A DNA stretch of 38,976 nucleotides from a virus. Shown here one piece after another: positions 27,136 through 38,852 of this stretch. Below the pieces are notes generated by a model. It did no database searches and was not told the origin of the DNA. It saw only the letters and a program-made list of their open reading frames with translations. The stretch is from IMG/VR virus record IMGVR_UViG_3300022891_000006, positions 1 through 38,976 of that record, one strand, 5' to 3'. A program made the position numbers and the translations under genes. Each line of letters begins with the position of its first letter. Positions within the stretch are counted from its first letter, which is position 1.

Positions 27136-27171
27136 TTGACATGGTCATGGTGCATGGTGCAGAGTCTGCAC
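27136..27171 (+). promoter_or_regulatory. Promoter with variant GTGCA-N5-TGCAC operator
   Basis: TTGACA (27136-27141), 18 bases, CAGAGT (27160-27165). The -10 box is covered by a perfect 15-bp palindrome GTGCAGAGTCTGCAC (27157-27171), same half-sites as the repeated leaderless element but with a different centre. No ATG follows, so the transcript would have a leader of about 245 bases before the GTG at 27421. Confidence 0.6.
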
Positions 27172-27804: not shown

Positions 27805-27840
27805 TTGACAAGTCGGTGGCTGGGGTGCAATGATTGCACC
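27805..27840 (+). promoter_or_regulatory. Leaderless promoter/operator cassette, copy 1
   Basis: TTGACA (27805-27810), 18 bases, AATGAT (27829-27834), six bases TGCACC, ATG at 27841. The palindrome GTGCAATGATTGCAC (27825-27839) covers the -10. Predicted start of transcription is the A of ATG. Confidence 0.8.
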
Positions 27841-28209
27841 ATGACGACGACGCAGAGCACCCCAGCCACCGTGACCGTAGCCTCCACCGACCAGTTCATG
27901 AACCGCCGGACCGACCGCGAGTTCGTCACCCGCGAAGCGGCGGACGCTTACATGGCGACCTGCCACGGATACGGCGGGCAGGCGTGGATCGTGAGCCGCT
28001 TGACAACTGAATTCACCCGGGCCGATGAACTCGGCGTCGGCTTCCGGTTCATGGACGCGAACCGCACTGAGTACACCGTGGCCAGCGCCACGCTGGTGCG
28101 CCGTCATCACGAGGACGTGGTCGATGTGGTCACCACATCGGGACGCGAGATCACGTACGCCGCATGGGCTCTCGTGAGCGTCTACGTGATCGACGGTCGC
28201 CGCGTCTGA
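27841..28209 (+). CDS. Early-type small protein, MTTT family
   Basis: 122 residues: MTTTQSTPATVTVASTDQF, then REFVTREAADAYMATCHGYGGQAW and a beta-rich C-terminus (FRFMDANRTEYTVASATLVRR). No recognised domain. Start at 27841 is fixed by the repeated element, whose conserved block ATGACGACGAC is the first codons; an open extension to 27805 would translate the promoter itself. Probably transcribed leaderless. Followed by a perfect hairpin at 28222-28250. Confidence 0.8.
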   Translation: MTTTQSTPATVTVASTDQFMNRRTDREFVTREAADAYMATCHGYGGQAWIVSRLTTEFTRADELGVGFRFMDANRTEYTVASATLVRRHHEDVVDVVTTSGREITYAAWALVSVYVIDGRRV

Positions 28210-28221
28210 CCCCCACCCACC

Positions 28222-28250
28222 GATGCCCCCGCCGATCCGGCGGGGGCATC
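28222..28250 (+). terminator. Hairpin terminator GATGCCCCCGCC/GGCGGGGGCATC
   Basis: Perfect 12-bp stem (28222-28233 with 28239-28250), 5-base loop. The same stem sequence recurs at 30107 and 31044, and shortened at 29619, marking ends of cassettes. Confidence 0.75.
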
Positions 28251-28278
28251 CTTGCGTCTGGTGACCTGTCGGCACGAC

Positions 28279-28314
28279 TTGACAAGATCTGAGGCACCGT
28301 GCAATGATTGCACC
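28279..28314 (+). promoter_or_regulatory. Leaderless promoter/operator cassette, copy 2
   Basis: TTGACA (28279-28284), 18 bases, AATGAT (28303-28308), TGCACC, ATG 28315; palindrome at 28299-28313. Confidence 0.8.
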
Positions 28315-28950
28315 ATGACGACGACGAGAGCAGCCGCAGCCCTGGCAGCAGCCAACCTGACCCCCACCGTGGCGAACGTGCTCAAGGTGTACCGGTCCGC
28401 AACCGACGCACAGTTGGCCGAAGGTATCCGCTGGTACGACGACGCTCACACGCTGGCCGTTGCGCTTGACCCGACCAACGTTGAGCGTTCATCCGGTGTC
28501 ATCGCCGCACTGTCGCCGATGATGCCGTGGGGACGCAACGTGACCACCGCAGTTCGGGCCTACGCCGATGGTTTCGCCTCGGGATGCCTGAACACGTCAT
28601 GCGCCAAGGCAGACCGCATCCTGAACGGTGAAGCACCGTTGGACGTGATCGGCAACGGCAACAAGGTCCGCAACTTTTACCTGAACATCCTTAACCCGTC
28701 CGATGCCTGCGGTGGTGTCACGGTTGACCGTCACGCTTTCGACATCGCGGTGGGTCGGGTCACCGATGACGAGACGCGCGGCATCCTCTCCCGCAAGGGT
28801 GTGTACGACACGTTCGCCGATGTGTACCGGCAGGCTGCTCTCATCGCTGGCATCGGTTCGGCACAGATGCAGGCTGTGACATGGGTTGTGTGGCGCGAGT
28901 CGGCCGGTAAGTTCGCTGCTGCGAACCGTCGCGAAGCGGGTAGGGCCTGA
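28315..28950 (+). CDS. Conserved phage protein with TVDRHAFDIAVGR motif
   Basis: 211 residues, largest of the plus-strand block. Mostly helical: GVIAALSPMMPWGRNVTTAV, KADRILNG, GNGNKVRNFYLNILNP, then VTVDRHAFDIAVGR and YRQAALIAGIGSAQMQAVTW. The layout (helical bundle, an invariant-looking Asp-Arg-His after a beta turn, Trp at the end) recalls a family of actinophage and plasmid proteins of unknown function and vaguely HhH-type DNA glycosylases; I would not assign activity. Leaderless start at 28315. Its TGA shares a base with ATG of the next gene (TGATG), so the two form one operon. Confidence 0.8.
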   Translation: MTTTRAAAALAAANLTPTVANVLKVYRSATDAQLAEGIRWYDDAHTLAVALDPTNVERSSGVIAALSPMMPWGRNVTTAVRAYADGFASGCLNTSCAKADRILNGEAPLDVIGNGNKVRNFYLNILNPSDACGGVTVDRHAFDIAVGRVTDDETRGILSRKGVYDTFADVYRQAALIAGIGSAQMQAVTWVVWRESAGKFAAANRREAGRA

Positions 28951-29165
28951 TGGCTCCCCGCAAGGCGTCGCCACGAGTGGTGGCGACGCCGTACCGGGCG
29001 AAACTCACCCCGTACTATGAGATCTCGACTCGTGTGCAGGTCTGGCGCACCTTGGGTGACGTGCTGATTCACAACGCTCTGCACCGTGGGGGTGTGGAGC
29101 GTGCGACGGCAATCGTCCATGACGTGATCGAGGCGGACGAGAGAGCGCTTGACAAGCCACCGTGA
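28950..29165 (+). CDS. Small basic protein coupled to upstream gene
   Basis: 71 residues: basic N-terminus MAPRKASPRVVATPYRAKLTP, then a helical part WRTLGDVLIHNALHRGGVERATAIVHDVIE. Not recognised; could be a partner of the upstream protein. Starts by TGATG coupling. Its last codons contain the TTGACA (29149-29154) of the next promoter, so the promoter is inside the gene end. Confidence 0.75.
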   Translation: MAPRKASPRVVATPYRAKLTPYYEISTRVQVWRTLGDVLIHNALHRGGVERATAIVHDVIEADERALDKPP

Positions 29166-29184
29166 CCCGTGCAATGATTGCACC
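29149..29184 (+). promoter_or_regulatory. Leaderless promoter/operator cassette, copy 3
   Basis: TTGACA (29149-29154), 18 bases, AATGAT (29173-29178), TGCACC, ATG 29185. The -35 box lies in the coding end of the preceding gene. Confidence 0.8.
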
Positions 29185-29607
29185 ATGACGACGACAGAGA
29201 GCACCGAACGCGACATCCGCGACGCAGTCTCGGCCCTGTGGCCAGCGCTCACCCCCGTGATCATCACCCACGAGGTTGAGATCTGCCACCACAGCACGGA
29301 CGCACTGCTCGGATACTCCGAGCACACCACGTACGGCATGATCGTGGGTCACAAGATCCGCGACGAATTCGGCGACTACCCACAGCGTTTCATCGTGATC
29401 CGCGACAGCGCCGATGAGGAGTACTACCTAGAAATCGCAGTCGGCGACGGCGGAGAGTTCGCCATGTACTCCGCCTGGATGGAGCGTGACGGCGTCACCG
29501 AAGCGTTCCCGTCCGACCCTCTGGCCGCTTACGAGAGCAATGAAGAAGCGTTCGGCGACCTGCTGGACGATCTCGTGACCGAAGGCGCGCTACTGCCCGT
29601 GTGGTGA
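29185..29607 (+). CDS. Acidic early-type protein, MTTT family
   Basis: 140 residues, strongly acidic (FAMYSAWMERDG, SNEEAFGDLLDDLVTEG). MTTTESTERDIRDAVSALWPAL starts a helix; the middle is beta-like (YPQRFIVIRDSADEEYYLEIAVGDGG). Unknown function; acidic small phage proteins of this type often act as nucleic-acid mimics or host-protein inhibitors, which is speculation here. Leaderless start. Followed by a T-tailed terminator at 29619. Confidence 0.8.
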   Translation: MTTTESTERDIRDAVSALWPALTPVIITHEVEICHHSTDALLGYSEHTTYGMIVGHKIRDEFGDYPQRFIVIRDSADEEYYLEIAVGDGGEFAMYSAWMERDGVTEAFPSDPLAAYESNEEAFGDLLDDLVTEGALLPVW

Positions 29608-29618
29608 CTCGCTCACCC

Positions 29619-29654
29619 AATGCCCCCGATGCCTCGGCGTCGGGGGCATTTTCG
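29619..29654 (+). terminator. Intrinsic terminator with T-run
   Basis: AATGCCCCCGA (29619-29629) pairs with TCGGGGGCATT (29640-29650), with further pairing toward the loop, followed directly by TTC. Best intrinsic terminator of the block. Confidence 0.8.
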
Positions 29655-29656
29655 TG

Positions 29657-29692
29657 TTGACAACTCACCGATGCCCGTGCAATGATTGCACC
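29657..29692 (+). promoter_or_regulatory. Leaderless promoter/operator cassette, copy 4
   Basis: TTGACA (29657-29662), 18 bases, AATGAT (29681-29686), TGCACC, ATG 29693. The spacer ACTCACCGATGCCC is identical to that of copy 5, so the whole cassette is duplicated. Confidence 0.85.
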
Positions 29693-30094
29693 ATGACGAC
29701 GACACAGGGCAGCAGAGCAGACCGAGTCCGCACCGATGGCGCACAGGTTCAGATCGTGAGCGGCGAGTACCGGGGCCACACGGCGCGGTCGTGTGGTGCG
29801 GTGAGCGTGAACGAGGTCAAGGTGTTCGATTTCGACAGCAACGGCTACCGCATCGTGCACGTTTCCGACCTGGACGTGGCCGAGACTGAAATGCCGCGCA
29901 CTACCTACGATGTGCTGTTCCGCGTGAGCACCGGACGTTTCGCGGGAATGCCTGACTACATTACCGTTGTGGTCGGCCCGGACGGCAACGGCAAGCCGTA
30001 CACCTCCGAGTCAGACATCCCGAAGATCATCGCAGTCCGGCTGGCGCTGAACGAGGCCGACATCACCGTGATCTCACTCGGCAAGCGCGCCTGA
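29693..30094 (+). CDS. Early-type protein with KOW-like N-terminus
   Basis: 133 residues. GAQVQIVSGEYRGHTARSCGAVSVNEVKVFDF resembles a KOW/SH3-like barrel start (V-x-I-x-S-G-E-Y-R-G-x-T), a motif found in NusG and ribosomal proteins (read as two shorter segments). The C-terminal half is alpha/beta (YITVVVGPDGNGKPYTSES, IIAVRLALNEADITVIS). A role in transcription or translation control is conceivable but unproven. Leaderless start at 29693; hairpin follows. Confidence 0.8.
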   Translation: MTTTQGSRADRVRTDGAQVQIVSGEYRGHTARSCGAVSVNEVKVFDFDSNGYRIVHVSDLDVAETEMPRTTYDVLFRVSTGRFAGMPDYITVVVGPDGNGKPYTSESDIPKIIAVRLALNEADITVISLGKRA

Positions 30095-30106
30095 CCACCC
30101 ACCCAC

Positions 30107-30135
30107 GATGCCCCCGCCAGGTTGGCGGGGGCATC
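30107..30135 (+). terminator. Hairpin terminator, 13-bp stem
   Basis: GATGCCCCCGCCA (30107-30119) and TGGCGGGGGCATC (30123-30135) with a GGT loop. Near-copy of the hairpins at 28222 and 31044. Confidence 0.75.
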
Positions 30136-30169
30136 CTTGCGTTCGGCGAAAGTCGTTGCCCGACACGAG

Positions 30170-30205
30170 TTGACAACTCACCGATGCCCGTGCAATGATT
30201 GCACC
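30170..30205 (+). promoter_or_regulatory. Leaderless promoter/operator cassette, copy 5
   Basis: TTGACA (30170-30175), 18 bases identical to copy 4, AATGAT (30194-30199), TGCACC, ATG 30206. Confidence 0.85.
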
Positions 30206-30406
30206 ATGACGACGACACAGAGCACCCGCAGCCGCATCACCGTTGCATCCGACCTGCTGGTCGGTGACCGCGTATTCATGGGCCAGGCATGGCGCACCGT
30301 GCGCTACCTCGTGACCTGCCTCGCCGACCGCACCCAGACCGTGATCACCGCCGATGGCGGAGAGTACGAGATCGGTCTCGACTCCGCAGTTTCCTACATC
30401 GCCTGA
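30206..30406 (+). CDS. Small early-type protein, MTTT family
   Basis: 66 residues: MTTTQSTRSRITVASDLLVG, then DRVFMGQAWRTVRYLVTCLAD and a beta hairpin QTVITADGGEYEIGL. Looks like a small all-beta domain (perhaps Hint/SH3-like; LVGDRVFMGQAWRTV resembles beta strands around a WR motif seen in many actinophage small proteins). Not recognised. Leaderless start. Confidence 0.8.
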   Translation: MTTTQSTRSRITVASDLLVGDRVFMGQAWRTVRYLVTCLADRTQTVITADGGEYEIGLDSAVSYIA

Positions 30407-30417
30407 CCTGAAATGCC

Positions 30418-30445
30418 CCGGCGGGCGGCACAAGCCGTCCGCCGG
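30418..30445 (+). terminator. Hairpin terminator, 12-bp stem
   Basis: CCGGCGGGCGGC (30418-30429) pairs with GCCGTCCGCCGG (30434-30445), one G-U, ACAA loop. Different sequence from the GATGCCCCC family. Confidence 0.7.
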
Positions 30446-30453
30446 TAGCACGC

Positions 30454-30489
30454 TTGACAACGCTCCACATCCCGTGCAATGATTGCACC
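30454..30489 (+). promoter_or_regulatory. Leaderless promoter/operator cassette, copy 6
   Basis: TTGACA (30454-30459), 18 bases, AATGAT (30478-30483), TGCACC, ATG 30490. Confidence 0.8.
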
Positions 30490-31032
30490 ATGACGACGAC
30501 GAGAGGCAGTGACATGAACGGCATCGAGAGCATCTACTCCCACGGACAGCACGTCACCATCGAGATCGACGGCGAACTGATGCCCGGTCACCTGACCGTG
30601 CAACAGCGTGAGGGTTTCTGGTTCGCGGTTCTCGCGGACGGCACGCAGTTGGGCCAGATCAGCGAAACTCGCCTCGCCAGCGTGACCACGCTGGTGCACG
30701 GTGACCGGCTGCGAGTGGCCGACGCCAAGGCGCAGAATCACTCATTCTCGACCCTGTCCGGCTTCGGCGCGCAGTACAACGATTACGAGGGTTCCGCAGG
30801 ACTCGCAAAGTACATGGAGCACGCCTCCCGCCAGGGTGGCAAGGTTGCGTGGATCAACGCAGAGGCGACCGTGATCTCGGCTCACCGTGAGCGCCCGGTC
30901 ACCCGTCACCACGTCCGCAGTGGCGACCTGGTCCGCGTCGCCTCGACCGCCCCGGGCGAGGCTGGCTGGTACCGGATCACGCTGCCCGGGATGCTCGACG
31001 GCGACCACTGCAACCTGGTCCGCGTCAACTGA
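30490..31032 (+). CDS. Early-type protein, MTTT family, 180 residues
   Basis: MTTTRGSDMNGIESIYSHGQ starts a protein with two beta-rich modules (VTIEIDGELMPGHLTVQQRE and VRSGDLVRVASTAPGEAGWY) around a Gly/Tyr/Ser-rich middle (FSTLSGFGAQYNDYEGSAG). The second module ends WYRITLPGMLDGDHCNLVRVN. SH3-like barrels are possible. Unknown role. Leaderless start at 30490; a second ATG at 30514 exists, but the element fixes the first. Confidence 0.8.
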   Translation: MTTTRGSDMNGIESIYSHGQHVTIEIDGELMPGHLTVQQREGFWFAVLADGTQLGQISETRLASVTTLVHGDRLRVADAKAQNHSFSTLSGFGAQYNDYEGSAGLAKYMEHASRQGGKVAWINAEATVISAHRERPVTRHHVRSGDLVRVASTAPGEAGWYRITLPGMLDGDHCNLVRVN

Positions 31033-31043
31033 TCTCACCACCT

Positions 31044-31072
31044 GATGCCCCCGCCGGTCTGGCGGGGGCATC
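31044..31072 (+). terminator. Hairpin terminator GATGCCCCCGCC/GGCGGGGGCATC
   Basis: Perfect 12-bp stem (31044-31055 with 31061-31072), loop GGTCT; same stem as at 28222. Confidence 0.75.
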
Positions 31073-31080
31073 ATTGCGTC

Positions 31081-31257
31081 ATGGCTACCCACATCACGCC
31101 CGGCGGAATCGTCGGCCGGTGCACGTTTCTCGGCGTCGACACGCCACGGTGGTTCGATGCGTACGTGCTGGACATCGATGGCACCCATGGCGCTCCCACC
31201 TGGATCTATCGCGTGCTGAGATCGAGTGGCCTGGTCCGCTTGACAGAACTCCACTAA
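31081..31257 (+). CDS. Possible small protein without own promoter
   Basis: 58 residues: MATHITPGGIVGRCTFLGVD, beta-like with TPRWFDAYVLDIDGTHG and WIYRVLRSSG. Coding bias looks right and the end overlaps TTGACA of the next cassette (31240-31245), as for other real genes here. But it follows a terminator by 8 bases and has no clear ribosome site or promoter; expression would need readthrough. It may be a cassette that lost its promoter. Confidence 0.5.
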   Translation: MATHITPGGIVGRCTFLGVDTPRWFDAYVLDIDGTHGAPTWIYRVLRSSGLVRLTELH

Positions 31258-31275
31258 GCGTGCAATGATTGCACC
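31240..31275 (+). promoter_or_regulatory. Leaderless promoter/operator cassette, copy 7
   Basis: TTGACA (31240-31245), 18 bases, AATGAT (31264-31269), TGCACC, ATG 31276. The -35 lies within the preceding small frame. Confidence 0.8.
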
Positions 31276-31797
31276 ATGACGACGACGCAGAACACCTCAG
31301 CCAAGACCGCAGACGAGTTCCGGGCCGAAGCCCGCCAGCACTCGATCAACGCTCACGAGTCATTCGAGCGTTGCGACACGGACGGCTTCATGAGCCAGTG
31401 GGCCTCGGGCCTGTCAGCCGCCAAGGCGCACCTCGCCGCAGACATCGCCGAGAACGGCGGTTGCGCATCGTTCCCGGCACTCTTCGAGTGGGGCGGCGAC
31501 CTGGTGCCCGCGAAGTTGATCGAGACCCGCTACGGCTACTCGTGGGGCATCCTCGAAAGCGATGACCCGCGCAGCCGGATCGTCGACTGGTTCAACCCGT
31601 CCAAGGCGCGCAACGACGACAAGCGGATCGAGAACAACGCTCGCAAGGGTTTCAGCGTCGGGCGCGTCATGGCTCCCGCGAAGGCTGAACTTGCCGGAGC
31701 CAACGCGACGTCGGTCCGGCCGATCCCCGTCCGCACCGATGGCGGATTCTCCCGTGACGTCGAAATCGTTGAATTCGTCAGCCGCTACAACGGCTAG
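31276..31797 (+). CDS. Early-type helical protein, MTTT family
   Basis: 173 residues. N-terminal helices (TADEFRAEARQHSINAHESFE, GLSAAKAHLAADIAENG), a central YGYSWGILESDDPRSRIVDWF and a C-terminal KGFSVGRVMAPAKAEL with V-E-I-V-E-F. Not recognised. Leaderless start at 31276; a T-tailed hairpin follows 13 bases after the stop. Confidence 0.8.
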   Translation: MTTTQNTSAKTADEFRAEARQHSINAHESFERCDTDGFMSQWASGLSAAKAHLAADIAENGGCASFPALFEWGGDLVPAKLIETRYGYSWGILESDDPRSRIVDWFNPSKARNDDKRIENNARKGFSVGRVMAPAKAELAGANATSVRPIPVRTDGGFSRDVEIVEFVSRYNG

Positions 31798-31809
31798 TAC
31801 CGTCCGCCC

Positions 31810-31851
31810 GTGCACCCTGTCGGCCCACACCCGGCAGGGTGCACCATTTTG
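31810..31851 (+). terminator. Intrinsic terminator with 14-bp stem and T-run
   Basis: GTGCACCCTGTCGG (31810-31823) pairs with CCGGCAGGGTGCAC (31831-31844), one wobble, 7-base loop, followed by CATTTTG. Confidence 0.8.
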
Positions 31852-31856
31852 CCCGC

Positions 31857-31892
31857 TTGACAACCGCCGACAAGTCGTGCAATGATTGCACC
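31857..31892 (+). promoter_or_regulatory. Leaderless promoter/operator cassette, copy 8
   Basis: TTGACA (31857-31862), 18 bases, AATGAT (31881-31886), TGCACC, ATG 31893. Confidence 0.8.
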
Positions 31893-32156
31893 ATGACGAC
31901 GACAGAGATCACCCCAGGCATGTTCGACATTCGCATCAGCAACAGCGGCGATTGGTCCATCACGACCGCTGCAACTCTCACCGACGCGCAGGCCAAGGTG
32001 ATCACCTGGCGCGCGAACCCCGCCGACGTCGTGCTCGGCGCGTACGTGCAGGTCTCCGACGCTGGCGGGCTGCGCATCGGCCACCTCTCCCGGGCGACCT
32101 ATCACAACCCGTGGGCGCAGACCCCGTACGTGATCTGCGAACTGGAGTTGATGTGA
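31893..32156 (+). CDS. Small early-type protein, MTTT family
   Basis: 87 residues: MTTTEITPGMFDIRISNSGD followed by WSITTAATLTDAQAKVITWR, VVLGAYVQVSDAGGLRIGHL and YVICELELM. Mixed alpha/beta with one central helix; could be a single compact domain. Unknown. No terminator after it: the next cassette's TTGACA begins 1 base after the TGA, so readthrough transcription into the next gene is likely. Confidence 0.8.
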   Translation: MTTTEITPGMFDIRISNSGDWSITTAATLTDAQAKVITWRANPADVVLGAYVQVSDAGGLRIGHLSRATYHNPWAQTPYVICELELM

Positions 32157-32157
32157 G

Positions 32158-32193
32158 TTGACAACTCCCCGCATCGTGTGCAATGATTGCACC
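32158..32193 (+). promoter_or_regulatory. Leaderless promoter/operator cassette, copy 9
   Basis: TTGACA (32158-32163), 18 bases, AATGAT (32182-32187), TGCACC, ATG 32194. Confidence 0.8.
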
Positions 32194-32463
32194 ATGACGA
32201 CGACAGAGACCATCACCCGCAACGACGCCGAGAACTTCCTGCGCAACACCGCACTGGTCAACCTGAGCGGCATGATCGGCACCCCACATGCCGGTCGCTA
32301 CACCTTGCACGAGGCACTCGGCGAACTCGGCCGGTGTAACGGCGTGTTCCAGATCGAGAGCCTCAACGGCCTGCACGTCCTCAAGGCGACCAGTGACAAC
32401 GGACAGCACCGCTGGTACGTGCACACCGACGAAAACCTCGTGCCCCGCAACCCATGGGCGTAG
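32194..32463 (+). CDS. Small early-type protein, MTTT family
   Basis: 89 residues: MTTTETITRNDAENFLRNTA, a helix (YTLHEALGELGRCNG), then beta strands (VFQIESLNGLHVLKATSDNG, HRWYVHTDENLVP). Not recognised. Last gene of the plus block; it converges on the HNH gene with a shared 16-bp hairpin. Confidence 0.8.
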   Translation: MTTTETITRNDAENFLRNTALVNLSGMIGTPHAGRYTLHEALGELGRCNGVFQIESLNGLHVLKATSDNGQHRWYVHTDENLVPRNPWA

Positions 32464-32486
32464 GCTCGGTATCCGCTGCTGAACGA

Positions 32487-32527
32487 GACGACGCGCTCTG
32501 ACTCCCGATGGGTCAGAGCGCGTCGTC
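32487..32527. terminator. Bidirectional terminator between convergent genes
   Basis: GACGACGCGCTCTGAC (32487-32502) pairs perfectly with GTCAGAGCGCGTCGTC (32512-32527), 9-base loop. It ends the plus block and overlaps the last codons of the minus-strand HNH gene. Confidence 0.75.
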
Positions 32528-32860
32528 GTATGCGGGGTCATACGGCGGATCGCTGCCAAGGTTGCATGACCGGTGCGTCATGTCGCTGAGTTTCGCCGTC
32601 CGGTCATCACGCAACGCGATGATGTGGTGCAGGTCCAGCGGCTGACCCTTGCGCATCTTCCGGCCGCAGATCGCGCACGCGCGGCCATAGGCGCGCGGCA
32701 GGAGCCTCGCCCGCTTGACCCGGTGCTCATAGTCGTACCCGCGTGCGCTGGCGCTTCCACGGGCAACCTCGCGCGCCGTGGCGCACTTCTCACACCGGCC
32801 CGCGCGCACCGCGACGGCAGTGCACCCCTCCTGATTGCACACTGCCGTCGCGCGCGGCAT
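32513..32860 (-). CDS. HNH endonuclease
   Basis: 115 residues. An N-terminal zinc-knuckle-like pair (CNQEGC about residues 8-13, CEKC about 24-27) is followed by a basic helix and an HNH core: CAICGRKM, LDLHHIIALRDD (catalytic His pair) and HRSCNLG. Metal-dependent DNA nicking or cutting; in HK97-like phages such enzymes may aid packaging cleavage, and free-standing ones can be homing nucleases. Here it is far from the terminase in gene order. ATG at 32860 shares a base with the upstream TGA. Confidence 0.85.
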   Translation of the reverse strand: MPRATAVCNQEGCTAVAVRAGRCEKCATAREVARGSASARGYDYEHRVKRARLLPRAYGRACAICGRKMRKGQPLDLHHIIALRDDRTAKLSDMTHRSCNLGSDPPYDPAYDDAL

Positions 32861-33444
32861 CAGACCAGCAACCCCGTGTCGACGTCCATGGTCTGCGCGG
32901 ACTCGCGCCACTTGCCGAGTTCACGCGCGCCGACCAGAGCGAACGGCACCCCCGGGGGTGCTGACACCCGGCCCTCCTCGAACTTGCCCGCGACCCACAG
33001 ACCCTGCAGCCGCACCCAGCCCTGCGGCCGGTGCGCGTACGCCAGGATCATGACCGAGTGCACCGGCTCGCGCTCGGTCCATCCCACGGTCTTCATCGCA
33101 GGTCGGCCGGTAGGGGTCTCCTCGCCGGTCGGTTCCTTGATCGCATCCATTTTCGTGGTGCCATCATTGTTTACTTCCCAGCCGTAGGCGTAATTCGCTT
33201 TCAACGTCCATCCAGGTAATGCGATGAATGATTTAGCGAATGTCAATGCACCGTCCGGCATATCCACATCACCGACAATGGTCTTTACCTTGCCGGTGCG
33301 TGTCATTGTCGTGACGAAAGCAATGGGCCGAGCCCGCACCAATGGTTCCGGATGAACAGGCTCGACCCACGGCTCCCGCTTTTCCCAGACGCGCTCGGTA
33401 GTGACGACGACATCATCAATGTCATCGATGTGATCACCCAACAA
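32860..33444 (-). CDS. Unknown protein, 194 residues
   Basis: Mixed alpha/beta with RPIAFVTTMTRTGKVKTIVG, AKSFIALPGWTLKANYAYGW, then EREPVHSVMILAYAHRPQGW and a Pro-rich turn (VSAPPGVPFALVGARELGKW). No family recognised. The start is TTG at 33444 or 33441 with GGAG 9 bases before; it overlaps the end of the membrane protein gene by 11 bases. The codon use between 33130 and 33330 is less GC-rich than neighbours. Confidence 0.7.
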   Translation of the reverse strand: MLGDHIDDIDDVVVTTERVWEKREPWVEPVHPEPLVRARPIAFVTTMTRTGKVKTIVGDVDMPDGALTFAKSFIALPGWTLKANYAYGWEVNNDGTTKMDAIKEPTGEETPTGRPAMKTVGWTEREPVHSVMILAYAHRPQGWVRLQGLWVAGKFEEGRVSAPPGVPFALVGARELGKWRESAQTMDVDTGLLV

Positions 33445-33640
33445 TGCGGATCACTCCGAACGTCGTGAAGATCACGATCACTACGAGCAGAGCGATCACG
33501 GCGACCCGCATCGGGCCGATGTCGTCGTGATCGCTGTCGCCGGACCGGTCTGATCGCTGATCGCTGGTCACATCGTTAGCGAGCGGCCAGAGCCGATCGT
33601 TACGGTCCGGCTGATCGCTAAGCGACCGGCTGTTCTGCAT
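33434..33640 (-). CDS. Small single-pass membrane protein
   Basis: 68 residues. Hydrophilic Asp/Arg/Ser-rich N-terminal 43 residues (SDQRSDRSGDSDHDD) and a C-terminal transmembrane helix (VAVIALLVVIVIFTTFGVI). Likely tail-anchored with the N-terminus in the cytoplasm. GGAGG 6 bases before ATG 33640. The repeated Ser-Asp-Gln/Arg text comes from tandem GATCGCT words on the plus strand. Confidence 0.75.
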   Translation of the reverse strand: MQNSRSLSDQPDRNDRLWPLANDVTSDQRSDRSGDSDHDDIGPMRVAVIALLVVIVIFTTFGVIRIVG

Positions 33641-33896
33641 CGCTGACCTCCGGCTCGTACTTGTCCTTGAACCACTTGGCCCACTTGTCGAGATCGTAGA
33701 GCCGACCCATCGACAGGGGCGGAAACTCCTGATCGCTAAGTGGCCCCGGAGCGCCGTTCTGCTCCATGCGGTAGATCATGCTGCTCGCTCGGGTGTAGTC
33801 CACGCCGAGTTCGATCGCGAGTTCACTGATGCCGCCGACCCGCTTGTTACGGATGTTGGTCTTGCGGGTGACTCGCTCGGCTCGCTGTCGGGCCAT
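33618..33896 (-). CDS. Helix-turn-helix DNA-binding protein (AlpA/excisionase-like)
   Basis: 92 residues. GGISELAIELGVDYTRASSMIYRM forms an HTH (read as helix ISELAIELG, turn VD, recognition helix YTRASSMIYRM), and FPPLSMGRLYDLDKWAKWF resembles the wing of small AlpA/Xis/MerR-like phage regulators. It could regulate phage promoters; it is the only DNA-binding regulator-like protein in the window, so it is a candidate for the GTGCA-N5-TGCAC operator. ATG at 33896 has GGAG 8 bases upstream; GTG at 33905 would be too near. It overlaps the upstream gene by 121 bases. Confidence 0.7.
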   Translation of the reverse strand: MARQRAERVTRKTNIRNKRVGGISELAIELGVDYTRASSMIYRMEQNGAPGPLSDQEFPPLSMGRLYDLDKWAKWFKDKYEPEVSDAEQPVA

Positions 33897-34138
33897 GGTG
33901 GGCACTCCTCAGGTTCGGGGGGATCGCTGGCGTGGTGACCTGACATAGCGATCAGCCACTTCTTGAACGTGATCATGGTGTGGTGCGGGTACTCGGCCCA
34001 CTCGGGCGTGCCGGGTCCGTAGAGCCCAACACCGTCCTCGCGGGTCTGTTCGTCAGCGAGGCGGGCGGCGTAGTACGCGGCCATGAATTCCCGGTGGTAC
34101 CGGGAGACCTTCCGCGTCGTCTTCCGCTCGTATCGCAT
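33776..34138 (-). CDS. Basic early-type protein with variant leaderless start
   Basis: 120 residues. N-terminal 65 residues are basic and aromatic (RYERKTTRKVSRYHREFMAA, YPHHTMITFKKWLIAMSGHH); after residue 80 the chain becomes Ser/Pro-rich low-complexity, because it overlaps the HTH gene in another frame. The start ATG 34138 is fixed by a variant cassette (34139-34173). The true protein may be shorter, or a -1/+1 shift could join it to the HTH frame; neither is shown. Confidence 0.65.
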   Translation of the reverse strand: MRYERKTTRKVSRYHREFMAAYYAARLADEQTREDGVGLYGPGTPEWAEYPHHTMITFKKWLIAMSGHHASDPPEPEECPPWPDSEPSESPARPTSVTSGSAASVNSRSNSAWTTPERAA

Positions 34139-34173
34139 GGTGCAATGTTTGCACGTTGTTGAGGACTTGTCAA
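34139..34173 (-). promoter_or_regulatory. Variant leaderless cassette, 17-base spacer
   Basis: Minus-strand TTGACA (34173-34168), 17 bases, AAACAT (34150-34145), TGCACC, ATG 34138. Palindrome GTGCAAACATTGCAC (34140-34154) keeps both half-sites; centre and first codons (ATGCGATACG) differ from the canonical copies. Confidence 0.7.
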
Positions 34174-34646
34174 CTCACCCCGGGCACGGTCGGCGGACCC
34201 ATCGAACCGTCGTGCGGCGCGGTGCCGCTGAGCACGTCCATCACATGCTTGGGCAGCGGCTGAACGTAAGGGCGCTGCAGCGGCGCTGTGGGCCGCCCTG
34301 AAGGGCTCGCAGGGTCCGCCTCGGTATAGATGGTCCCGACGTCCACGAAACGGCCTCCACGCCCCCGCCAGACGCCGCGCACGCGCCGTCCCACCTGATG
34401 CCTTCGGCTGGCGAGGACAACACGAACCACGCAGCCAGTCACGAGGTCATGACAGAACCATGTCCGCATCCCGGTCAAGGCCGGTCCCGAAGACCAGACG
34501 GGGCCACGGCGGGGGGATTCTCCCCCGTCCGCATGGATCTCCAGCCAGAGCAGCCCGTCCCCCGGTTCCGGCGCGAACTTCCGGCCCTTGATCACCCCAC
34601 GCTCGGGCCTGGCCAGCAGTCGGCGTGCGTCGTCCGCGCTGGTCAT
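34170..34646 (-). CDS. Unknown basic protein, 158 residues
   Basis: MTSADDARRLLARPERGVIK then EPGDGLLWLEIHADGGES, MRTWFCHDLVTGCVVRVVLAS and an Arg-rich loop (RRVRGVWRGRGGRFVDVG). Not recognised. ATG at 34646 overlaps the upstream stop as ATGA; the frame open to 34778 is a shadow of the neighbour. Its last codons overlap the -35 region of the variant cassette. Part of a three-gene unit with the two NUMOD4-like genes. Confidence 0.65.
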   Translation of the reverse strand: MTSADDARRLLARPERGVIKGRKFAPEPGDGLLWLEIHADGGESPRRGPVWSSGPALTGMRTWFCHDLVTGCVVRVVLASRRHQVGRRVRGVWRGRGGRFVDVGTIYTEADPASPSGRPTAPLQRPYVQPLPKHVMDVLSGTAPHDGSMGPPTVPGVS

Positions 34647-34888
34647 GAGCCGAAAGTCTCGGCGACAAGCGCCGAAACGTCGCGAATCACGGGCACGTTG
34701 TTCAGCCAGAGCCTGACCCGTTCGCGGCCATCGCTGGTGTGCTTGAGTGGCACGGGACGTGGTTCCTTCGCAACCCAAGTACCGTCGCGAAGTTGCAGGC
34801 GCGTGCCGATGTGCCTGACCTGGCCTTCTTCGTTGATCTGGTAGACCCCGCGAGAGTCAGCGATGTCTCGCCACTCGGCGGCGGTCAC
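34643..34888 (-). CDS. NUMOD4-like protein, short
   Basis: 81 residues. EWRDIADSRGVYQINEEGQVRHIG matches the NUMOD4 pattern (W-[KR]-x-I-x(4)-Y-x-[IV]-[SN]-x-x-G-x-[IV]-[RK]), and VSALVAETFG resembles the linker that normally leads to an HNH domain (given in pieces). No HNH residues follow: the chain ends there. NUMOD motifs bind DNA in homing nucleases, so this may be a stand-alone DNA-binding module or a nuclease remnant. GTG start overlaps the upstream gene as GTGA. Confidence 0.7.
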   Translation of the reverse strand: MTAAEWRDIADSRGVYQINEEGQVRHIGTRLQLRDGTWVAKEPRPVPLKHTSDGRERVRLWLNNVPVIRDVSALVAETFGS

Positions 34889-35328
34889 AGGGTGATCCCG
34901 TGCTTCGCGGCGGCCTTGAGTGCCGCGTCAGTGGGCTTTCGTTCCACCCGCTTGCGCAGTTCGATGTTGTCGGCCCGGTAGTTCGCCGGATCGGCCCGGT
35001 AGGCGTCGACCTCGGCCTTCAGTTCGACTGAGCCTTCGACCAGTAGGTATTGGTGCGTCTTGGGGTCGATGGGTCCGTGAAAAGCCTGGCCGACCACGTC
35101 GGCGAGGTTGCGCCGAACGCGCTGACCATCCACGGACATCTCGGCCATCAGGAAGCCGGAGAGCGAGCGCATCGGCTTGATCAACTTCGGAGGCACTTGC
35201 CGGTGAGTCATGCCGGTCTCGGGGTCGACCCAGAGCGGCAGGCCGAGGCGGCGCAACTGCCCCTGATCACTGACCTCATACCGCCCGTTGGTGTCTGGGA
35301 TGGTCTGCCATCGTGGTGTTTTGCTCAT
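34885..35328 (-). CDS. NUMOD4-like protein, long
   Basis: 147 residues. PRWQTIPDTNGRYEVSDQG and QLRRLG form a NUMOD4-like motif; LADVVGQAFHGP is the LV.AF-type linker; the C-terminal ANYRADNIELRKRVERKPTD is basic and helical. As in its neighbour, HNH catalytic residues are absent. The two are probably paralogues. ATG 35328 has no good ribosome site; TGCTAGCAT then CCGTCC directly before ATG suggests an extended -10 and leaderless start as in the repeated cassettes. Confidence 0.7.
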   Translation of the reverse strand: MSKTPRWQTIPDTNGRYEVSDQGQLRRLGLPLWVDPETGMTHRQVPPKLIKPMRSLSGFLMAEMSVDGQRVRRNLADVVGQAFHGPIDPKTHQYLLVEGSVELKAEVDAYRADPANYRADNIELRKRVERKPTDAALKAAAKHGITL

Positions 35329-35343
35329 GGACGGATGCTAGCA
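35329..35343 (-). promoter_or_regulatory. Possible extended -10 leaderless promoter
   Basis: Minus-strand TGC-TAGCAT followed by CCGTCC and ATG 35328, the same geometry (TGN plus hexamer, six bases, ATG) as the canonical cassettes, but without a clear -35 box or palindrome. Confidence 0.4.
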
Positions 35344-35401
35344 GACGTCCTGTATATCCTCGCCCCCCGTTCGCCCCCTCGTGCACGCTTGCCCCCCCTC
35401 C

Positions 35402-35554
35402 TGACCTGCGGAAACGTCCGAAAATCGAGAAGTTGATGTTGCAAAAAAATCAACCGTACACGAATGTACGGATGACCCTATATATCCATTCGTGTACGGT
35501 TAAATTAAAATTCATGATCCACAGAGGTTTTTATGTGTAGCGACCTGCGGAAAC
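35402..35554. repeat. Direct repeats CGACCTGCGGAAACG-type flanking AT-rich island
   Basis: GACCTGCGGAAACG occurs at 35403-35416 and 35541-35554, both next to CCCCCCTC runs. The repeats bracket the only strongly AT-rich segment of the window. Confidence 0.6.
35432..35535. other. AT-rich divergent island with 15-bp perfect inverted repeat
   Basis: Between divergent genes. Contains GTTGAT...ATCAAC (35432-35453) around an A7 tract, AACCGTACACGAATG (35452-35466) with its perfect inverted copy CATTCGTGTACGGTT (35487-35501), an inner CGTACA-CGAA-TGTACG, CTATATATC at the centre, then TTAAATTAAAATT and TGATCCACA, a 7 of 9 match to a DnaA box. No gene. Candidate replication origin, partition site or master operator; inference. 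Confidence 0.45.
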
Positions 35555-35656
35555 GAGGGTTCTGCCCCCCCCTCGCCCCCCTAAGATCATTTGCCCCCTA
35601 CGGTTCCGTAAGTTACCGACCGTCAACCCTCAACCTCTACCTGAGGGTCAGAGTTC

Positions 35657-35682
35657 TTGACAGTTTGGTGCATACTGTGCAC
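35657..35682 (+). promoter_or_regulatory. Variant GTGCA-N5-TGCAC operator at a divergent gene
   Basis: Palindrome GTGCATACTGTGCAC (35668-35682) directly abuts ATG 35683. TTGACA (35657-35662) is only 5 bases before the palindrome instead of 14, so it cannot serve as -35 with the usual spacing; TGCATACT may act as an extended -10. Half-sites match the canonical operator exactly. Confidence 0.55.
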
Positions 35683-35973
35683 ATGACTGACCAGACGCGA
35701 CCGACCGTGAGGGTGCCCGTGCCACCCCCGCGCTCTCCGGCGCGCGCCGACTGGGCCGGACGGATCGAGGCACTGCGCGGCCAGCGGGTCTACGTCGCCA
35801 ACGAGGCCGAGGTGTTCCGGGGGTTCTACGCCTGGTCCGAACTGGACGAGGACGCCGAGGGGTTCCTCTGGGTCGAGGTGGTGCCCGAGGTGGAGTGGTG
35901 GGCGTTCCGGCTGCTCGGCCACACGCCTCTCAACGTGGTGCGCTGGCCTGCGGGAGCGGTCTGGCTGGACTGA
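35683..35973 (+). CDS. Small Trp-rich protein, unknown
   Basis: 96 residues: Pro/Arg-rich start MTDQTRPTVRVPVPPPRSPA, then WAGRIEALRGQRVYVANEAE, FYAWSELDEDAEGFLWVEVV and VEWWAFRLLGHTPLNVVRWP. A small beta domain with several Trp. Not recognised. Start at 35683 abuts the variant operator and is probably leaderless; the frame open to 35533 runs through the AT-rich island and CCC tracts. Followed by a strong terminator. Confidence 0.75.
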   Translation: MTDQTRPTVRVPVPPPRSPARADWAGRIEALRGQRVYVANEAEVFRGFYAWSELDEDAEGFLWVEVVPEVEWWAFRLLGHTPLNVVRWPAGAVWLD

Positions 35974-36002
35974 TCGGATTTATCCCGCCGTGGCCCCACG
36001 AA

Positions 36003-36045
36003 AAAGCCCCGGAAAGCGACCACCTGCGTCGTCTTCCGGGGCTTT
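36003..36045 (+). terminator. Terminator, 12-bp perfect stem
   Basis: AAAGCCCCGGAA (36003-36014) pairs with TTCCGGGGCTTT (36034-36045), 19-base loop; A-run before and TTT at the end make it usable from both strands. Confidence 0.8.
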
Positions 36046-36188
36046 CCATTGTCTGTCCAGCCAGCACCCAGACCTTGATCGTTTGCGGGCCGCTGACTAC
36101 GGCGACCCCTTGAAGTGAACCGGGGACGCCTCCGTCAGCGTACCTGAACTGTCAAATGTCTCAACCTCAGGCTGAGGGTCACTGTTCG

Positions 36189-36225
36189 CCCGTTGACTAC
36201 TCCGGGGGTCGAGGGGGGCTGTCCG
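36189..36225. repeat. Direct repeat left of endonuclease VII-like gene
   Basis: CCCGTTGACTACTCCGGGGG then TC, one variable base, AGGGGGGCTGTCC. The second copy is at 36698-36734, about 510 bases away, with a single difference. The repeat supplies the last codons of the nuclease gene (SPPRPPE and stop). Confidence 0.8.
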
Positions 36226-36655
36226 TGCGTGCCTGGTGCTTGCGCAGGTATTCGATGGCGAGCATGAGACCTTCGATCGAGTCACCGAAGGCTCCGAGTG
36301 CGACGTTGCATCGAGTGCAGAGCAAGCCGCGCACGATGCCTGTTGCGTGGTCATGGTCAACAACCAGTCCGTTTTGTGCCAGCAGTTCGTGGAAGTCATC
36401 ACAGATCGCGCAGTGACCCTCCTGCTCCTCGTAGAACGCTAGATACTCCGGCCATGAGAGCCCGTAGGTGCGCCTGACGTGGCCTTTCATGCGAGTCAGC
36501 CGGTGCTTCTCGGGGTTGGCCGCCCGGTACTCAGCCGTGATGTCGCGGTGACAGTCCTTGCAGTTGGACATCCGATCGAACTTCATCCCCTTCTGCTTGT
36601 AGAACGCAGAAACGGGCTTGACCTGCTCACATCGCTTGCATTCCTTGGATCTCAT
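36197..36655 (-). CDS. Endonuclease VII-like recombination nuclease
   Basis: 152 residues. Endonuclease VII signature: CAICDD near residue 82, LVVDHDHATGIVRGLLCTRCN near 96-116 (D-H-D-H, C-x2-C pairs; shown in part) and LGAFGDSIEGLMLAIEYL. An N-terminal Cys-rich motif (CKRCEQVKPVSAFY, CKDCHRD) precedes it, as in many actinophage copies. T4 endonuclease VII resolves branched DNA before packaging; many relatives behave as homing enzymes. Flanked by the 37-bp direct repeats, one of which overlaps its 3' end. ATG 36655 has weak AGGATTTAGG upstream. Confidence 0.85.
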   Translation of the reverse strand: MRSKECKRCEQVKPVSAFYKQKGMKFDRMSNCKDCHRDITAEYRAANPEKHRLTRMKGHVRRTYGLSWPEYLAFYEEQEGHCAICDDFHELLAQNGLVVDHDHATGIVRGLLCTRCNVALGAFGDSIEGLMLAIEYLRKHQARTDSPPRPPE

Positions 36656-36697
36656 GCCTAAATCCTAGCACCCAGAATTTAGACATCCCCTGGACCA

Positions 36698-36734
36698 CCC
36701 GTTGACTACTCCGGGGGTCCAGGGGGGCTGTCCC
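36698..36734. repeat. Direct repeat right of endonuclease VII-like gene
   Basis: Second copy of the 36189-36225 repeat. It starts just after the stop of the minus-strand gene at 36736 and precedes the nuclease ATG by about 40 bases. Confidence 0.8.
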
Positions 36735-36735
36735 G

Positions 36736-37242
36736 TCAGGCTTGCTCGAACAGCGAGACCTCTTTGACCGCGAAGGTGTCGGTCGAGAACTTGTGCAGCA
36801 CGGTGACCGCCGACTCGGCACCGGCCCGGTCGAGGCAGATGCCGACCGGGTACTCGTCGTAGCCGCGCACCAGCAGGAAGCCGACCGGGTCACCGTCAGC
36901 CTCGGCGACCGGCCGGGCAACGCCGATCTTGTGCTCGGTGAACCGGTCGCTGAGGGCGGCGAACCGGTCCTCGTCGTGGCCGAGGTCGCCGTCGCTCAAG
37001 TACTGGATCTTGTTGAGCATCCACTCCATGTCGGCGTTCGGGACCTGGATGCTGTCGGCCACCGGCGTGGCCACGAACGGCTCCTGCGGGCCGACCATGG
37101 CCGTCCGCAGCCGCTCGTAGGCGGCGACACCGTCGTCACCGAGGAACTCGTCGGCCAGGTCGCCGATCTTGCTGAACAGGGTGCGGATGTCGTTCGCGTC
37201 TACCTGGATCATGGTGTCCATCTCCTTGTTCGTCGTCGTCAT
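36736..37242 (-). CDS. MTTT-family protein on minus strand, 168 residues
   Basis: MTTTNKEMDTMIQVDANDIRT then helical LFSKIGDLADEFLGDDGVAAY, PNADMEWMLNKIQYLSDGDL and a beta C-terminus VGFLLVRGYDEYPVGICLDR with FAVKEVSLFEQA. Not recognised. Start 37242 is fixed by the canonical cassette on the minus strand; the frame open to 37278 would translate the promoter. The 37-bp repeat follows its stop. Confidence 0.8.
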   Translation of the reverse strand: MTTTNKEMDTMIQVDANDIRTLFSKIGDLADEFLGDDGVAAYERLRTAMVGPQEPFVATPVADSIQVPNADMEWMLNKIQYLSDGDLGHDEDRFAALSDRFTEHKIGVARPVAEADGDPVGFLLVRGYDEYPVGICLDRAGAESAVTVLHKFSTDTFAVKEVSLFEQA

Positions 37243-37278
37243 GGTGCAATCATTGCACGGATGCCGACGAGTTGTCAA
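37243..37278 (-). promoter_or_regulatory. Leaderless promoter/operator cassette, copy 10
   Basis: Minus-strand TTGACA (37278-37273), 18 bases, AATGAT (37254-37249), TGCACC, ATG 37242; palindrome 37244-37258. Confidence 0.8.
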
Positions 37279-37296
37279 CTCCCCCTGGACAGCAGA

Positions 37297-37326
37297 AACG
37301 CCCCGAATCCGAAGATCCGGGGCGTT
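37297..37326 (-). terminator. Hairpin terminator after 240-residue gene
   Basis: AACGCCCCG (37297-37305) pairs with CGGGGCGTT (37318-37326), with some pairing in the 12-base loop; 10 bases past the stop at 37336 on the minus strand. Confidence 0.7.
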
Positions 37327-37335
37327 GCCTGGCGC

Positions 37336-38058
37336 TCAGTCCCAGTACGCGGCCTCGCTGCCGGTCACCTCAAGCCCTGCGGCGCGCTCCAGGGCCGCTT
37401 GCCAATGTCCGGTGCTGGCAGCCACGGAGAAGTCCCTCGTGGGCCGCTCCAGGCCCAGAGCGAGCGCCAGCATGACCTGGTCGTCCATCGTGGTCTGGTA
37501 GTCCGTGACGCGGGCAGCAGGGGCCTTGATGTGCAGCCAGCCGTACGCGGTGCCGGTACTGCCGGTCACCGACCAGGTCCGGCCGGTCCGCGCCTTCAGG
37601 AACGTCTTGATCAACTTCGTGGTCGCGGTCCGGTCGTGGCTGGACAGAACGCTGTTGATCGCGGCCTGCACGCCCTTGAGCGGCATCATCACCGGCGGAA
37701 CCTCCACCGCGATGTCGTCCCGCTTCAGCCGGGCAACGAGACGCTCGCGGTCGCGCTCCAGCCGCTGCCGGTCGGCGGCGTCCTCGGTTGCCTGCCGGGC
37801 CGCGAGATCGGCGGCGTGCTGCTCCTGGCTCGCCGTCAGGAACTCGGCCGTGCCGGACAGCCGGGCCTGGGCCTTGGGTGGCAGACCGGCCGGGAGCCGG
37901 TGTGCGACGGCGATCCGCTCGTACTGCTCGCACTGCAGGTCGGTGAGTGACTGAGTGCCCTGCATGGTGTCGACTCCCATGCCTGCGAGCCGGATGAGCA
38001 ACTGCAGGTCGTCGTGGTTGATCGTTACGTCCATCGTGGTCTCCCTTGTCGTCGTCAT
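37336..38058 (-). CDS. MTTT-family protein, 240 residues, coiled coil plus conserved C-terminal part
   Basis: MTTTRETTMDVTINHDDLQ, a helix-rich N-terminus, a charged coiled coil (ATEDAADRQRLERDRERLVA, about 90-110), then FLKARTGRTWSVTGSTGTAY and GWLHIKAPAARV, a motif I have seen as conserved in actinophage proteins of unknown function. The C-terminal DFSVAASTGHWQAALERA closely resembles a segment of the 81-residue protein encoded at 38250-38495. Leaderless start at 38058; own terminator at 37297-37326. Confidence 0.8.
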   Translation of the reverse strand: MTTTRETTMDVTINHDDLQLLIRLAGMGVDTMQGTQSLTDLQCEQYERIAVAHRLPAGLPPKAQARLSGTAEFLTASQEQHAADLAARQATEDAADRQRLERDRERLVARLKRDDIAVEVPPVMMPLKGVQAAINSVLSSHDRTATTKLIKTFLKARTGRTWSVTGSTGTAYGWLHIKAPAARVTDYQTTMDDQVMLALALGLERPTRDFSVAASTGHWQAALERAAGLEVTGSEAAYWD

Positions 38059-38094
38059 GGTGCAATCATTGCACAGCGATCAGAGAGTTGTCAA
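38059..38094 (-). promoter_or_regulatory. Leaderless promoter/operator cassette, copy 11
   Basis: Minus-strand TTGACA (38094-38089), 18 bases, AATGAT (38070-38065), TGCACC, ATG 38058. The -35 lies inside the last codons of the small membrane protein gene. Confidence 0.8.
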
Positions 38095-38253
38095 CTTCAG
38101 CCAGACGAGTGATGCAGCGATCGCCACGATCGCAACGATCACCGCAGCGGCGAACATCGCAGCGATCACACCGGCGAACCGAGCGAGCGCCACAACGATC
38201 AGCGAGCGATCAGCGATCGGATCGTTGGCGTGCCGGGCGTAGCGAGCGCTCAC
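38080..38253 (-). CDS. Small single-pass membrane protein
   Basis: 57 residues, short and GTG-started. MSARYARHANDPIADRSLIV is followed by a long hydrophobic run (VALARFAGVIAAMFAAAVIV, IVAIAASLVWL). GTG at 38253 overlaps the upstream TGA as GTGA, and the stop is reached through the TTGACA of the next promoter. Built almost from repeated GATCGCT/GCGATC words. Unknown role; membrane location is clear. Confidence 0.7.
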   Translation of the reverse strand: MSARYARHANDPIADRSLIVVALARFAGVIAAMFAAAVIVAIVAIAASLVWLKLTTL

Positions 38254-38495
38254 AGCATCGCTCGCAACTCGGCCCGCACGCGCTTAGCGAGCGAGGTGTT
38301 CCAGTGACCGTCACTGCTCGCTACGAAGAACTCCACGAGCGATCGCATGGAGTACGGCCCGTAGTGATCAGCGATCGACGCCACGCCGCTCATAGCGATC
38401 ACGGGCGCTCGCAGCGATCCGGGCAGCAGATCCCATTCGGTCTGAATATCAGCGGCAATGAGCCGCAGGCTGCGGCCCTGCAATTGAATGTCCAT
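38250..38495 (-). CDS. Small protein sharing GHW motif with the 240-residue protein
   Basis: 81 residues: MDIQLQGRSLRLIAADIQTE, LLPGSLRAPVIAMSGVAS, then SLVEFFVASSDGHWNTSLAK. The last stretch aligns with DFSVAASTGHWQAALERA of the 38058 gene product (F-x-V-A-[AS]-S-x-G-H-W). Probably a shared small fold. GGGGA before ATG 38495; GTGA junction to the membrane protein gene. Confidence 0.75.
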   Translation of the reverse strand: MDIQLQGRSLRLIAADIQTEWDLLPGSLRAPVIAMSGVASIADHYGPYSMRSLVEFFVASSDGHWNTSLAKRVRAELRAML

Positions 38496-38513
38496 TGTTT
38501 CCCCAATGAATAG

Positions 38514-38537
38514 GCCGGGAGCCCGAAGGCCCCCGGC
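38514..38537 (-). terminator. Short GC hairpin after minus-strand gene
   Basis: GCCGGG (38514-38519) pairs with CCCGGC (38532-38537), 10 bases beyond the stop of the 38547-38816 gene. Weak, no T-run. Confidence 0.45.
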
Positions 38538-38546
38538 GTCTGGAAT

Positions 38547-38816
38547 TCAGGCTCCGTATGCGTCCCATGATTCTTCGGTGGCGCTGGCGGTAAAGATCTC
38601 GTCCCAGTCGGAGTCAATCTCGACCAGGGTCGCGAGGTGCAGGCAGAGGAACAGGTGGAGGTCGATGCGGGAATTCTCGGCGAGGGTCAGGACGAATTCG
38701 CTGATCTCGACGCCGCCGCCGACGAATGGCTGCTCGGCCAACTTGCGGGCGGTGCAGTAGAGGTTCGCCGCGAGGGTCACGATGGTCTCGGTCTCGATGC
38801 TCTGTGTCGTCGTCAT
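38547..38816 (-). CDS. Small MTTT-family protein, acidic, minus strand
   Basis: 89 residues: MTTTQSIETETIVTLAANLY, a helix with Cys (CTARKLAEQPFVGGGVEISE), then FVLTLAENSRIDLHLFLCLH and an acidic end (EIDSDWDEIFTASATEESWD). Mostly helical; not recognised. Leaderless start at 38816 fixed by the canonical cassette; the frame open to 38954 belongs to a shadow of the neighbour. Confidence 0.8.
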   Translation of the reverse strand: MTTTQSIETETIVTLAANLYCTARKLAEQPFVGGGVEISEFVLTLAENSRIDLHLFLCLHLATLVEIDSDWDEIFTASATEESWDAYGA

Positions 38817-38852
38817 GGTGCAATCATTGCACGGGCTGACGAGGCTTGTCAA
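38817..38852 (-). promoter_or_regulatory. Leaderless promoter/operator cassette, copy 12
   Basis: Minus-strand TTGACA (38852-38847), 18 bases, AATGAT (38828-38823), TGCACC, ATG 38816; palindrome 38818-38832. TTGACA overlaps the upstream stop codon. Confidence 0.8.

Follow-up and report, generated by a model that had tools for sequence, protein, structure and literature searches.

Cassettes, invariant block and leaderless register

The window analysed here (38,976 bases) is an entire IMG/VR record of an uncultivated phage. The window encodes portal, major head and tail proteins, together with a terminase that has approximately 51% identity to the terminases of Arthrobacter, Gordonia and Streptomyces phages and 70-87% identity to those of its IMG/VR relatives. 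The phage behind the record is an uncultivated actinophage. The record itself is probably a fragment, because those of three relatives (G007, G005 and G021), all of which extend into the non-structural region, measure 61-81 kb.

Twelve exact copies of TTGACA-N18-AATGAT-TGCACC-ATG (also written TTGACA-N18-AATGATTGCACCATG) were located in the window, nine on the plus and three on the minus strand (Table 1), as had been reported in the preliminary description; the pattern was found 0 times in 100 dinucleotide shuffles. Every exact cassette precedes an open reading frame of 66-240 aa, the product of which starts with MTTT. These genes are mostly orphans, with the exception of those behind cassette 2 (DUF7178) and cassette 7 (phrog_5855). 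The perfect palindrome that had been described as overlapping the -10 box was likewise recovered (7-bp arms, central G unpaired, repeated core GTGCAAnnnTTGCAC), and the extended -10 motif TGC was detected by promoter scan in all twelve. As a repeated element the perfect palindrome is restricted to the non-structural region of the window, where all 13 GTGCAA-N3-TTGCAC sites end exactly 1 bp ahead of an ATG.

The thirteenth of these sites belongs to a variant cassette (TTGACA-N13-GTGCAAACATTGCACC-ATG), in which both 6-bp palindrome arms are intact and the centre reads ACA where the others have TGA. Its -35-to-palindrome distance is one base shorter, ACGACGAC is absent, and the encoded protein starts with MRYE, not MTTT. 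At 35668 (+), GTGCATACTGTGCAC-ATG forms a looser site that lacks a convincing -35; a palindrome-like site at 27157 was set aside on account of its GGTGC-rich surroundings. A few codons into the genes of cassettes 6, 11 and 12 another ATG follows in frame, preceded by a purine-rich Shine-Dalgarno sequence of its own, and these three cassettes look as if they had been put ahead of an older start.

Table 1. Positions of the cassettes, the putative helix-turn-helix gene and the predicted terminators in the window.
Feature	Position	Strand	Content
Cassette 1	27805..27851	+	ORF 27841-28209; -35, spacer, palindrome/-10 and ATG, plus codons 2-4
Cassette 2	28279..28325	+	ORF 28315-28950, DUF7178, phrog_3842
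Cassette 3	29149..29195	+	ORF 29185-29607
Cassette 4	29657..29703	+	ORF 29693-30094; spacer identical to cassette 5
Cassette 5	30170..30216	+	ORF 30206-30406
Cassette 6	30454..30500	+	ORF 30490-31032; second in-frame start inside, GAGAGG-ATG
Cassette 7	31240..31286	+	ORF 31276-31797, phrog_5855
Cassette 8	31857..31903	+	ORF 31893-32156
Cassette 9	32158..32204	+	ORF 32194-32463
Cassette 10	38806..38852	-	ORF 38816-38547
Cassette 11	38048..38094	-	ORF 38058-37336; second in-frame start inside, AAGGGAG-ATG
Cassette 12	37232..37278	-	ORF 37242-36736; second in-frame start inside, AAGGAG-ATG
Variant cassette 13	34136..34173	-	ORF 34138-33776, phrog_7933
Putative helix-turn-helix protein, 92 aa	33618..33896	-	Second gene of the cassette 13 operon, Shine-Dalgarno GAGGAG
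Hairpin terminator after ORF 1	28222..28250	+	-29.4 kcal/mol
Hairpin terminator after ORF 3	29619..29650	+	Predicted folding
Hairpin terminator after ORF 4	30107..30135	+	Predicted folding
Hairpin terminator after ORF 6	31044..31072	+	Predicted folding
Hairpin terminator after ORF 10	38514..38537	-	Predicted folding
Hairpin terminator after ORF 11	37297..37326	-	Predicted folding

The twelve exact copies are identical to one another over -36 to -31 and over -16 to +11 (33 positions unchanged); 11 of the 12 carry A at -30, and positions -29 to -17 are mostly variable. The invariant block of the preliminary description was thus confirmed in kind and had been drawn too short: it comprises TTGACA plus GTGCAATGATTGCACCATGACGACGAC, by which codons 2 and 3 and part of codon 4 are fixed. 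At codons 2 and 3 threonine is always written as ACG (24 of 24), as compared with 103 of the 420 threonine codons counted elsewhere in the window genes, and the conservation of codons 2-4 exceeds what a repressor site alone accounts for. Perfect 7-bp arms arose by chance in 0.4-0.7% (<1%) of shuffled or random 27-mers. With 33 positions invariant, the spacer mostly variable and the arms improbable by chance, the block has been held while its flanks drifted. At least one recent duplication is indicated by cassettes 4 and 5, which have their entire spacer in common.

The -10 box ends six bases ahead of the ATG, and the spacing (16-19 bp allowed) places the predicted +1 on the start codon. Among the remaining 23 starts of the window 16 have a Shine-Dalgarno sequence, whereas 0 of the 13 cassette starts do. 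Six units (ORFs 1, 3, 4, 6, 10 and 11) are closed by a strong hairpin of -23 to -29 kcal/mol, so several units are single genes. Earlier, the cassettes had been proposed to be dispersed, co-regulated leaderless promoters; as a prediction from sequence this is well supported by the register, the lack of Shine-Dalgarno sequences, the terminators and an architecture kept in relatives, and the earlier interpretation as a whole is supported in part. For annotation, it would follow that actinophage genes without a Shine-Dalgarno sequence behind TTGACA-N17/18-10-N6 may begin at that ATG.

Relatives and known systems

Each genome and a control were scanned for combinations of -35, -10 and start codon in leaderless register. 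The hits (control in brackets) numbered 14 (1) in the window, 15 (2) in both G007 and G005, 11 (1) in G021 and 9 (0) in G013. Most of those in G007, G005 and G021 are leaderless promoters that match the window in register, and the -10 boxes of the relatives are of the ordinary TAGxxT type in that register. The promoters of G007, G005, G021, G013 and G014 consist of TTGACA, 17-18 bp, a -10, 6-7 bp and ATG and precede many non-structural genes, several of which encode proteins starting with MTT(T). The orthologues of the cassette 2 gene in G007 (51% identity) and G005 (49% identity) both start with MTTT and both lie behind leaderless promoters; a homologue in G021 has the same start and a leaderless promoter ahead of it, and such a promoter also precedes a partial orthologue of the cassette 6 gene in G007. 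When the orthologous promoters of these two genes were aligned, TTGACAA and ATGACGACGAC coincided, but the palindrome did not.

The GTGCAA palindrome is absent from the leaderless promoters of G007, G005, G021, G013 and G014. TTGWCA recurs at a distance of exactly 11 bp past the -35 in 10 of 15 promoters of G007, 8 of 12 of G005 and 7 of 9 of G021 (approximately 0.1 expected), and in 0 of 14 window promoters. The element repeated in G013 is TATAGTTGAAGTT-ATGAGC, and the promoters of G014 carry a CTCGAC-N4-GTCGAG palindrome within the spacer. Because orthologous promoters keep the register but differ in the repeated element, the leaderless frame is regarded as shared and the regulatory element as phage-specific: the putative operator is private to this phage, and the leaderless architecture is common to its relatives. 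We tentatively suggest that whole leaderless promoter sets swap their regulatory element in concert among these actinophages, with register and starts persisting at orthologues. It is conceivable, if somewhat doubtful, that the operators of each genome were all replaced by another sequence elsewhere on the promoter. Such a concerted swap, if true, would amount to regulator-operator switching of an entire phage regulon. Sister phages that share genes and register with this phage yet have other operators would allow the question of how immunity specificity changes over many sites to be approached by comparison.

Further features of these promoters were recorded in the relatives. The array of G013 (L115, L116) consists of TTGACA, 16-17 bp, TATAGT or TAAAGT, TGAAGTT and ATGAGC at six genes, including a homologue of window ORF 31276. 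Three leaderless-type promoters of G014 (L117, L182) read TTGTCAACTCGACCC(A/G)AGTCGAGTAAGGTGTTGAC-ATG with the palindrome in the spacer. In G021 (L177, 9554-9571) a perfect palindrome, TTGACAAGCGCTTGTCAA, encloses the -35 of a leaderless promoter.

Searches of IMG/VR and of 84,980 species genomes with exact and relaxed cassette patterns returned only isolated, chance-like matches among the records covered, which may leave out those very close to this one, and none of the stretches from one of these searches had a -35 in register. Matches in L001, L010 and L011 were rejected because their sequence contexts differ; L001, an unrelated contig, contains several clustered GTGCAATGGTTGCAC-like repeats at 961-1060. 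A nucleotide search of phage records gave nothing relevant, and no leaderless array was detected in the homologue-bearing stretches of the cultured phages Cepens, Muddy, Tonitrus, Triumph, Hexbug, TG1, Isolde, Nyceirae and Kromp. The preliminary description had named a random local duplication, absent from related phages, as the contrary case. The palindrome is indeed absent from the relatives and from the collections searched, but the block is not a random duplication, because spacers and downstream codons diverged while the block did not, and because orthologous genes of the relatives have leaderless promoters at the matching position.

The conserved inverted repeats of the Streptomyces phage phiC31 are repressor sites. 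In the non-structural stretch of phiC31 that was read, the palindrome ACTCACGTGAGT is present in eight copies, each 10-396 bp away from the start that follows, and no leaderless array was picked up by the scanner. Like phiC31, the window has perfect palindromes that are nearly identical to one another and scattered through an actinophage's non-structural region; it differs in the core (GTGCAAnnnTTGCAC, not ACTCACGTGAGT) and in the position of the sites, 13 of 13 of which lie at 1 bp from the ATG and overlap the -10.

Start-associated sequences (SAS) of cluster K mycobacteriophages are asymmetric, 13-bp elements of the GGGATAGGAGCCC type in the position of the ribosome binding site, 3-7 bp from the start (PMC3203893); the ESAS contains both a SigA-like promoter and an imperfect inverted repeat, the consensus of which varies between subclusters (PMC11373665), and Start-Associated Sequences also occur in cluster EF Microbacterium phages (PMC7302621). 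A dispersed conserved element at non-structural gene starts is common to SAS/ESAS and the window. Unlike the cluster K SAS, however, the window element is palindromic, of other sequence, without a Shine-Dalgarno and part of a leaderless promoter, and it falls outside that class. Cluster O phages (Corndog) have more than 30 copies of an invariant 17-bp palindrome with a 3-bp centre, as well as predicted leaderless SigA promoters PL1 and PR2 (PMC4351075); their palindromes are unconnected to promoters or starts, whereas palindrome, promoter and start form one unit in the window. In cluster EG Microbacterium phages, 8-10 copies of an 18-bp inverted repeat lie upstream of non-structural genes (PMC7302621), at 14-22 bp from the start and with no fusion to -10 or start codon described, in contrast to the fused sites of the window. 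By the definition cited in PMC4351075, cluster A stoperators are asymmetric, follow the direction of transcription and occur away from starts as well; the window sites are palindromic, 13 of 13 abut a start, and they are not of this kind. In none of the named parallels (cluster K SAS/ESAS, cluster O, cluster EG and phiC31) is an exact operator joined to both -10 and start codon. What is new is this joining of an exact putative operator to -10 and start codon, seen at 13 sites, together with the exchange of the operator relative to sister phages.

Proposed regulation and alternative explanations

We consider it probable that the cassettes, leaderless promoters of the SigA type numbering 13 or more, form a dispersed regulon and that their palindrome would be bound by a dimeric regulator. 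RNA polymerase would recognise TTGACA and the extended -10 (TGC-AATGAT), transcription would begin at the A of the ATG, and the mRNA would be translated from its own 5' end without a Shine-Dalgarno sequence. A dimeric regulator, probably a phage-encoded repressor, would bind GTGCAA-N3-TTGCAC and, on the bound site (-16 to -2), would shut polymerase out of all promoters at once. Repression is the simplest reading because of this coverage, from which a bound dimer would exclude polymerase. That a single regulator acts on the palindrome, as had been proposed before, is a good inference, because cassette 13 keeps the arms but alters the centre. On the letters of the DNA, the array is best read as short, mostly single-gene leaderless units under one dimeric, probably phage-encoded repressor that would cover the -10.

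Three other explanations were weighed. The hexamer AATGAT is non-canonical for SigA, with no T at -12, and the conserved block takes in all of -16 to +11, as might be expected of a promoter for a phage-modified polymerase or a phage sigma factor, the palindrome then being incidental or aiding a symmetric activator. We regard this as unlikely, given that the -35 and the spacing are canonical, that perfect 7-bp arms are improbable by chance, that the thirteenth copy retains the arms while altering the centre of the -10, and that the relatives have ordinary -10 boxes in the same register. The cassettes might also represent a mobile start module that was copied to its present sites recently, through duplication or gene conversion, so that their identity would reflect recency and not regulation; the entire shared spacer of cassettes 4 and 5, the seemingly partial relatedness of codons 5-7 (CAGAGCACC), the three cassettes that, like later additions, precede an internal in-frame ATG equipped with a Shine-Dalgarno sequence, and the restriction of the palindrome array to this phage all point that way. 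Most spacers and all genes have diverged, yet 33 positions are unchanged across twelve copies, and the -35, the register and the MTTT start are older, being present at orthologous genes of the relatives. Recent copying in place of regulation is accordingly judged improbable, and spread and regulation are compatible with each other.

The fixed distance to the ATG and the conservation reaching into codons 2-4 would also suit a translational start signal like the cluster K SAS, acting in RNA through a hairpin or ribosome contact on read-through transcripts, and a small hairpin (GUGCAA-UGA-UUGCAC, -5.6 kcal/mol) can be drawn. This hairpin is weak, however (z -1.7), a Shine-Dalgarno sequence is absent, every copy has a -35 with its spacing, and terminators between several units limit read-through; such an RNA signal is very improbable.

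If the palindrome is the site of one dimeric repressor, as we prefer, a single protein would govern a dozen short units via one site, which would serve at the same time as operator, as -10 and as the mRNA's 5' edge, a very compact off-switch for dispersed phage genes. The putative 92-aa helix-turn-helix protein encoded behind cassette 13 is only a candidate for the regulator. It has sub-threshold matches to MarR and FtsK-gamma families, and no homologue was found, including in a search of IMG/VR; for the 92-aa and 120-aa proteins of the cassette 13 operon no match was obtained among the relatives except one weak one, and their AlphaFold models (mean pLDDT 55 and 59) were too poor for use. Autoregulation by the 92-aa protein through the deviant operator of cassette 13 would be attractive. 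The regulator may equally sit outside the record, since the latter is probably a fragment.

Other repeats in the window

An endonuclease VII-like HNH gene (36655-36197, minus strand) is flanked by two near-identical direct repeats, GACAGCCCCCCT(G/C)GACCCCCGGAGTAGTCAACGGG (window 36190-36732), an arrangement that suggests an inserted mobile gene. The AT-rich intergenic stretch at 35455-35498 contains an inverted repeat, CCGTACACGAATG...CATTCGTGTACGG, possibly an origin or operator. The heptamer GATCGCT occurs on both strands in dense runs at 6.8-8.1 kb, 33.5-33.95 kb and 38.08-38.41 kb, mostly within predicted coding sequence.
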